A DNA stretch of 64,000 nt from an uncultured Bacteroidales bacterium. GTDB lineage: Bacteria; Bacteroidota; Bacteroidia; Bacteroidales; UBA932. The DNA lies in NCBI GenBank assembly GCA_905234285.1, contig CAJOHK010000005.1, positions 1 to 64,000 of the forward strand, given 5' to 3'. Under the pieces are notes generated by a model. The model was not told the DNA's origin, searched no databases, and saw only the letters and a list, made by a program, of their open reading frames with translations. The position numbers and the translations under genes were made by a program. The stretch's first letter is position 1. Each line of letters begins with the position of its first letter. Below, piece by piece: positions 1,074-45,464 of the stretch.

Positions 1074-1125
1074 GCAAATTAAACTGACACGCTACAGCGT
1101 GAAATGGAAGCTGTTGATTATTAAT

Positions 1126-1176
1126 GTGTTATGAAAAATCAGTCCGGCGTTTAGCCGGACTGATTTTCTGTAACAC
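1126..1176. terminator. Long hairpin terminator downstream of malQ (shared SCGG-core family, copy 1)
   Basis: GTGTTATGAAAAATCAGTCCGGC pairs with GCCGGACTGATTTTCTGTAACAC around the loop gttta. The inner 14 bp are perfect and the outer arms pair with a few mismatches. It sits 49 nt beyond the malQ stop (minus strand) and upstream of rsgA. Its core TCAGTCCGGC-N5-GCCGGACTGA recurs at 43.1 and 45.4 kb. The poly-A/T flanks make it a plausible bidirectional intrinsic terminator. Confidence 0.75.
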
Positions 1177-1224
1177 GCTGACAGTGAGCGCTTTGCGTTT
1201 TACAGTAACGCCAGCGTCAACGCA

Positions 1225-10120: not shown

Positions 10121-10209
10121 CAGCGGTGCTGCATACCTACCAGGACTATGAGTGGACCATTACCGCCTCGCAGCCTATTGATCGCTATGTGCAGTGCATC
10201 GACGCTTAT
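10096..10209 (+). other. Unassigned coding-like fragment
   Basis: The plus frame reads HTYQDYEWTITASQPIDRYVQCIDAYC with codon use like neighbouring genes, but it has no start context, no family I recognise and no normal end (it runs through the promoter palindrome). It may be the tail of a lost gene that was joined to the AraC remnant, or chance. Confidence 0.2.
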
Positions 10210-10239
10210 TGTAAGCCTGCGAAGTTTTTGCTAACTTTG
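10209..10239 (+). promoter_or_regulatory. Promoter of the DUF2723 gene, embedded in a palindrome
   Basis: TTG-N20-TAACTTTG, ending 20 nt before the ATG at 10260. The -7 box falls in the loop and right arm of the inverted repeat at 10211-10248. Confidence 0.6.
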
Positions 10240-10248
10240 CAGGCTTAC
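10211..10248 (+). repeat. 14-bp inverted repeat over the DUF2723 promoter
   Basis: GTAAGCCTGCGAAG pairs with CTTTGCAGGCTTAC (13 Watson-Crick pairs and one G-T) around TTTTTGCTAA. The whole element is 38 nt and ends 11 nt before the start codon. It could be an operator, or an RNA hairpin at the very 5' end of the message. Confidence 0.75.
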
Positions 10249-10259
10249 TGTAATAAGAT

Positions 10260-43040: not shown

Positions 43041-43079
43041 GCGTGGCCCGCGGTCGCTTAACCTTCTGATTCACAGTTA

Positions 43080-43126
43080 TTTACAGAAATTCAGTCCGGC
43101 TATTTGCCGGACTGAATTTCTGTAAA
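43080..43126. terminator. Bidirectional terminator between the dicarboxylate transporter and lyase genes (copy 2)
   Basis: TTTACAGAAATTCAGTCCGGC and GCCGGACTGAATTTCTGTAAA form a perfect 21-bp stem with the loop tattt. It lies between two convergent stops. It shares the core TCAGTCCGGC-N5-GCCGGACTGA with the hairpins at 1126 and 45392. Confidence 0.85.
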
Positions 43127-43170
43127 TGGCTCTGTGATAATTACTTAGGTGAACGCCTGGCTGGGCGTGA

Positions 43171-45354: not shown

Positions 45355-45391
45355 GTAATCACCCAGGTCATTGATGCTGAACCATTTACAA

Positions 45392-45424
45392 ATATTCAGT
45401 CCGGCAAATAGCCGGACTGAATAT
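45392..45424. terminator. Terminator after the DUF554 gene (shared core, copy 3)
   Basis: ATATTCAGTCCGGC and GCCGGACTGAATAT form a 14-bp perfect stem with the loop aaata, the same core as the hairpins at 1126 and 43080. Confidence 0.8.
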
Positions 45425-45464
45425 CTATATTCCGCTCAAAATCAATCAGTTAAGTGATCGGCAA

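Follow-up and report, generated by a model that had tools for sequence, protein, structure and literature searches.

A dispersed REP-like dyad element probably associated with a Y1 tyrosine transposase in an uncultured Bacteroidales bacterium

The closest described systems are the REP sequences and REPtrons of E. coli and Pseudomonas, which involve the group 2/3 TnpA_REP/RAYT proteins (REP-associated tyrosine transposases; PMC2817692, PMC8266576). A second relative, found mostly in Bacteroidetes, is TnpA_Y1 subclass 2.6, or Bertels RAYT group 5. Its genes lie between 'atypical secondary structures' that recur at other places of the genome, and the protein of ~179 aa carries the motifs NH[LIV]H, WQ and YIH[QN]NP; the text consulted gives no element anatomy (PMC6006769). 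In TIRtrons (TIRYT), long repeats, inverted or self-complementary, bracket RAYT-like genes, and some of these repeats have a moderate number of further copies in the genome (PMC3733652).

Here we analysed a window of 64,000 nucleotides (C5:1-64000), the whole stretch under study, together with the draft genome from which it comes (2,075,521 bases or 2.08 Mb, 63 contigs, 78% complete). The hairpins of the window are very probably the centres of a RAYT-associated, REP-like element of about 96 copies, whose cognate RAYT lies on contig C4, outside the window. As in REPtrons, the palindromes are dispersed and intergenic, copies flank a Y1 HUH gene, and the palindrome is species-specific and matched to the RAYT. 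Unlike REPs of 20-50 nt, the unit is 103 bp with arms and ends; only 6 of 162 arms have a GT[AG]G tetranucleotide, the counterpart of the GTAG/GTGG tag, at 22 nt or less from the core; and the protein, ~304 aa, has a conserved C-terminal half. The likeness to subclass 2.6 is that of a Y1 gene with structures on its flanks that recur at other sites; the proteins differ, those of the genus studied here being ~304 aa long with mostly DHxH, mostly WN and, in most, YxxNNP, which places them outside that subclass as described. The TIRs of TIRtrons are largely unrelated to each other (PMC3733652), whereas one arm scaffold with a variable core recurs across the RAYTs of this genus. The elements are best labelled as non-canonical REP/REPtron elements that lack the GTAG tag and belong to one RAYT clade. 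REP/RAYT biology is known, while the anatomy of this element is apparently undescribed in detail, as judged from a limited search of the open-access literature.

Anatomy and distribution of the element

A preliminary description had placed identical 10-bp stems with different flanks at three sites of the window, and the positions proved correct. The copies are as follows.

1100..1203, + strand: element copy 1, whole dyad; end type GTGAAA../..TTTTAC; intergenic, tandem genes
1139..1163, unstranded: core hairpin copy 1, TCAGTCCGGC-GTTTA-GCCGGACTGA
43052..43155, + strand: element copy 2, whole dyad; ends GGTCGCTTAA../..TTAGGTGAACG; convergent genes
43091..43115, unstranded: core hairpin copy 2, loop TATTT
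45356..45459, - strand (assigned from the T-rich loop): element copy 3, whole dyad; one end TTAAGTGATCG on the + strand
45396..45420, unstranded: core hairpin copy 3, loop AAATA (TATTT on the opposite strand)

The identity of the stems stands. The difference of the flanks does not, as degenerate arms and ends are common to the copies, and pairing exceeds 10 bp. The DNA of all three copies folds into a stable hairpin (z = -6 to -11), with the best pairing in copy 2. A search of the window against Rfam returned a tRNA only. An unrelated inverted repeat, TTATTGTAAGCCTGCGAAGTT, with arms 86% complementary, was seen at window positions 10206-10253.

Exact palindromes of the form AGTCCGGC-N5-GCCGGACT number 81 genome-wide, which disposes of the first refuting outcome named beforehand, that only three copies exist, and the 0-1 matches of a reversed-pattern control show them to be commoner than expected, which disposes of the second. 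The loop is A/T-rich and 5 nt long in 81/81, mostly TATTT or TTTTT. When up to two mismatches were allowed the count rose to about 96 copies, 81 of which have an intact stem; the 100% stem identity among those 81 is a product of sample selection. Comparison with related species found the family in none of 36 congeners, nor in 24 other genomes of the order that were checked. Single palindromes with unrelated loops occurred in two of the 36 congeners, public genome contigs yielded two isolated, unrelated hairpins, both devoid of arms, and the public viral contigs scanned yielded no hairpin. The suggestion of a dispersed repeat or recognised signal is borne out by these ~96 species-specific copies, some of which flank a RAYT gene.

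The stretches around all 81 exact copies showed that the hairpin sits in the middle of a dyad of exactly 103 bp, with indels in 0/81 copies and outer ends TCACTTAA/TTAAGTGA. Read from the outside inward, each half consists of TCAC-TAA, a degenerate stretch (YTGATNATCAR), TTA, an A-rich spacer and CAGTCCGGC. The arm scaffold is degenerate, TAA-N4-YTGATNATCAR-N4-TTA, and within the degenerate stretch the position 36 from the centre is always T and position 28 almost always A. About eleven of the genome's own copies, including window copy 1, combine the same core with a second end type, GTGAAA../..TTTCAC. The two ends of one copy agree in type (positions 48-53, z = 5.9). This second type resembles ends in other RAYT lineages (CGTAAAATG, CGTCGAATG).

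On average, copies were 51% identical to one another over positions 17-41, 61% over positions 42-53 and 26% in the flanks. Mean arm identity among own copies was 55%, indicating that the arms have diverged. Positions 17-41 contained 948 paired cells, against 1028 ± 19 in shuffled arms (z = -4.3). This stretch is thus not a conserved stem, and long perfect hairpins may be under negative selection. An RNA or stem covariation signal was sought and rejected, since interior positions showed no covariation, whether across the two arms or inside one of them, and are under-paired relative to chance. REPINs are symmetric two-arm units of ~100 bp, able to fold as a single hairpin. The symmetric two-arm layout of ~100 bp is shared here, but the arms are not tagged REPs, and their interior positions pair below chance rather than above.

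In the 505 kb of fetched sequence, nine further full-length copies with core changes scored 73-86 bits; below these came one half copy at ~30 bits, and then nothing above 10. The closest pair of copies, L033 1980 and L049 2720, is 94% identical and also has its upstream flank in common. The common flanking DNA suggests a segmental duplication.

A simple ORF call assigned 93% of the sequence to open frames, and almost all copies fell between genes. Among gaps of 60 bp or longer, those with an element comprised 33 tandem, 23 convergent and 12 divergent gene pairs; those without comprised 43, 15 and 37, respectively. The ratio of convergent to divergent gaps, 23/12 when occupied and 15/37 when empty, reveals a convergent bias (Fisher p = 0.0009). 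The view that the sites mark gene ends therefore holds as a bias and fails as a rule, 12 of 68 element gaps of this length being divergent. The neighbours are ordinary genes, single sites occur in both orientations, and adjacent copies spaced 124-142 bp are found. A gene-cassette arrangement was considered and dropped, as close element pairs enclose ordinary genes (RNase HII, EF-P, ABC transporters). The EF-P gene has an element on either side here, and none in the stretch covered in two congeners, G028 and G003.

RAYT genes and their private cores

Two RAYT genes of this genome are relevant.

C4:15524-16435, outside the window: RAYT1 gene, 304 aa
L117 2514-3413 (= G000:C38:9213-10112): second RAYT of the genome, with its own palindrome family CACCCTRCCG..CGGYAGGGTG

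RAYT1 adjoins a gene that reads as rpmH, judged from the gene start, and is flanked by three element copies (L025 3511 and 3647 on one side, 5378 on the other). The protein matched Pfam Y1_Tnp (PF01797) and NCBIfam NF047646 (REP_Tyr_transpos; E = 9e-12), the latter at 45 bits, below the curated equivalog cut-off of 80. A profile of RAYT1 relatives searched against the PDB retrieved only three chains, the transposases 2xo6, 2xm3 and 2xma, weakly (E = 0.007). Residues H58, H60, Y118 and W137 were present in 50/50 RAYTs, so that the HUH motif, the Trp and the catalytic Tyr are intact. Also present in all 50 is the conserved C-terminal half that follows the HUH domain, beyond residue ~150 of RAYT1; it is a candidate for arm or end recognition. 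Of 85 genomes of the genus, 61 had homologues (E ≤ 0.001), frequently more than one each. At E ≤ 1e-20, none was found in 197 other genomes drawn from the order, so that at this threshold the clade was not seen outside the genus.

The association was examined at 50 RAYT loci from the source genome and its congeners by an arm-motif scan of the flanks within 800 bp. Elements lay beside 48 of the 50 loci, flanking the RAYT on both sides at 36 and on a single side at 12, usually at a distance of 10-180 bp; the remaining 2 loci had none. The scan gave 102 matches in 209 kb and 0-1 in shuffled loci. The scan relies on the arm motif, but hairpins detected independently of that motif carry arms of the same kind. 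The arm scaffold is thus common to the RAYT-flanking elements of the genus, while the core is private to each RAYT: upstream and downstream cores of a locus agreed with a mean score of 9.6, against 0.02 between loci (0/20,000 permutations).

When the cores next to RAYTs were used as predictors, dispersed families of 11 to 55 copies turned up in exactly the genomes concerned. The core of the C38 RAYT, CACCCTRCCG, had 11 dispersed copies in its own genome and 0 in 84 congeners. The TCCTCGGC core was found 52 times in G005, 17 in G061 and 2 in G062, and the TYCTCGTTC core 55 times in G062, 45 in G061, 39 in G019 and once in G005; in other genomes each was found 0 times. Over 61 genomes, 26 had both element and RAYT, 1 the element only, 20 the RAYT only and 14 neither (Fisher p = 0.0007), the element count being a lower bound because the model was trained on the source genome. 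One genome, G061 (L170-L199, L200-L208, L220-L239), holds two core families together, 45 TCCTCGTTC and 17 TCCTCGGC, as if replacement were under way.

From these patterns we infer that the element is mobile and cleaved by the RAYT. The protein would bind the core hairpin in single-stranded DNA, for example on the lagging-strand template, and the conserved arm words and outer ends would set the element boundary or the cleavage sites. Past or ongoing RAYT activity may have dispersed the family and made it uniform. An influence on transcript ends, if there is one, would be a secondary matter. Counting against this reading are the diverged arms of the genome's own copies, the fact that the sole near-identical pair looks like a segmental duplication, the missing GT[AG]G tag, the two loci lacking elements and the Mantel result given below.

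Orthologous sites and rival explanations

RAYT1 occupies an orthologous place, beside the rpmH-like gene, in the source genome and in G005, G061, G062 and G019. Its identity to those orthologues was 53-55%, compared with a median ortholog identity of 70% against G061 and G062. The RAYTs of G061 and G062 are 82% identical and have the same core. At ~70% RAYT identity cores differ slightly or partly, and below ~60% they are unrelated. Over all pairs, RAYT and core similarity did not correlate (Mantel p = 0.2), likeness being confined to RAYT identities above ~60%.

Among 46 conserved gene-pair gaps, 6 were occupied in both genomes, with different cores, 1 here only, 1 in the congener only and 38 in neither (p = 5e-6), although this co-occupancy is weaker than it appears because most empty gaps are short operon gaps. 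When each genome was required to have a gap of 60 bp or more, 6 gaps held an element in both and 4 in neither (p = 0.005). The sites gave no evidence that arm letters are inherited vertically, since by eye arms and ends differ in the shared sites inspected. Given the different cores and unrelated-looking arms at shared gaps, preferred landing sites and turnover in place are both possible. There are two clear cases of presence and absence: at one the genes abut here and an element lies between them in G061 (L064 798), and at the other an element is present here and the genes abut in G061 (L028 15109).

Several features would also suit a regulatory or chromosome-organising dyad maintained by the host, such as a nucleoid-protein, gyrase or structural-maintenance site, where a host protein sets the core and the RAYT is a passenger or exapted partner. 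The fixed length without indels, the scarcity of decayed copies, the strong column constraint, the avoidance of extended arm pairing and the frequent occupancy of orthologous gaps in both species all fit. Yet the cores are private to each RAYT locus, two core families accompany the two RAYTs of a single genome, and elements are almost always missing from RAYT-less congeners, which makes this reading unlikely, if still worth serious thought. Intrinsic, possibly bidirectional terminators that have a stem in common by chance would account for the stable hairpins of the window, the convergent bias and the resemblance of some congener cores to an A-tract, GC stem and T-tract. However, no U-tract terminator (a GC stem with a direct T run) was called at the two of three window sites that were scanned, divergent gaps are occupied, and a terminator could dispense with the arms, with an invariant core and with a RAYT. 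The terminator reading is accordingly quite improbable.

The element also recalls integron attC sites in its ends, ACTTAAC/GTTAAGT, which resemble RYYYAAC/GTTRRRY, and classical DDE-transposase MITEs in its paired ends, which resemble terminal inverted repeats. Against attC, the invariant AAC/GTT was not upheld, the required C being present in 36/81 copies and the G in 42/81, and the sites are single, in both orientations and beside housekeeping genes rather than in cassette arrays. The linked gene encodes a HUH Y1 enzyme. Either identity is highly improbable. The preliminary analogy with uptake-sequence terminators, such as the inverted DNA-uptake words of Neisseria and Pasteurellaceae, has in its favour a short conserved word that recurs genome-wide, inverted near gene ends. 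In the window AGTCCGGC did occur 9 times against 2.55 expected (9 reached in 0/100 shuffles), but the single copies are not in excess because 6 of the 9 belong to the three palindromes, and in 505 kb the word was found 24 times outside palindromes, where 8-mers matched to it in composition had a median count of 20. The analogy also leaves the 103-bp architecture and the RAYT linkage unexplained; it is strongly disfavoured, to the point of being barely credible.

Target turnover and its significance

The RAYT-associated reading admits a further proposal, tentative and less likely than not. The constant arm scaffold might keep the sites, while core and outer ends would be replaced throughout the genome as the RAYT, itself vertically inherited, shifts its specificity, amounting to RAYT-driven turnover of ~50-100 dispersed targets in place. 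If this were true, G061, with its 45 and 17 copies, would be a genome caught midway.

The element supplies an anatomy for the 'atypical secondary structures' of the literature, and it bears on the persistence of domesticated Y1 transposases with their palindromes and on the way the two change together. With at least 50 RAYT loci, a readable core at each and a shared scaffold, and with multi-RAYT genomes among them, the genus offers material for computational and biochemical tests of recognition and target turnover.
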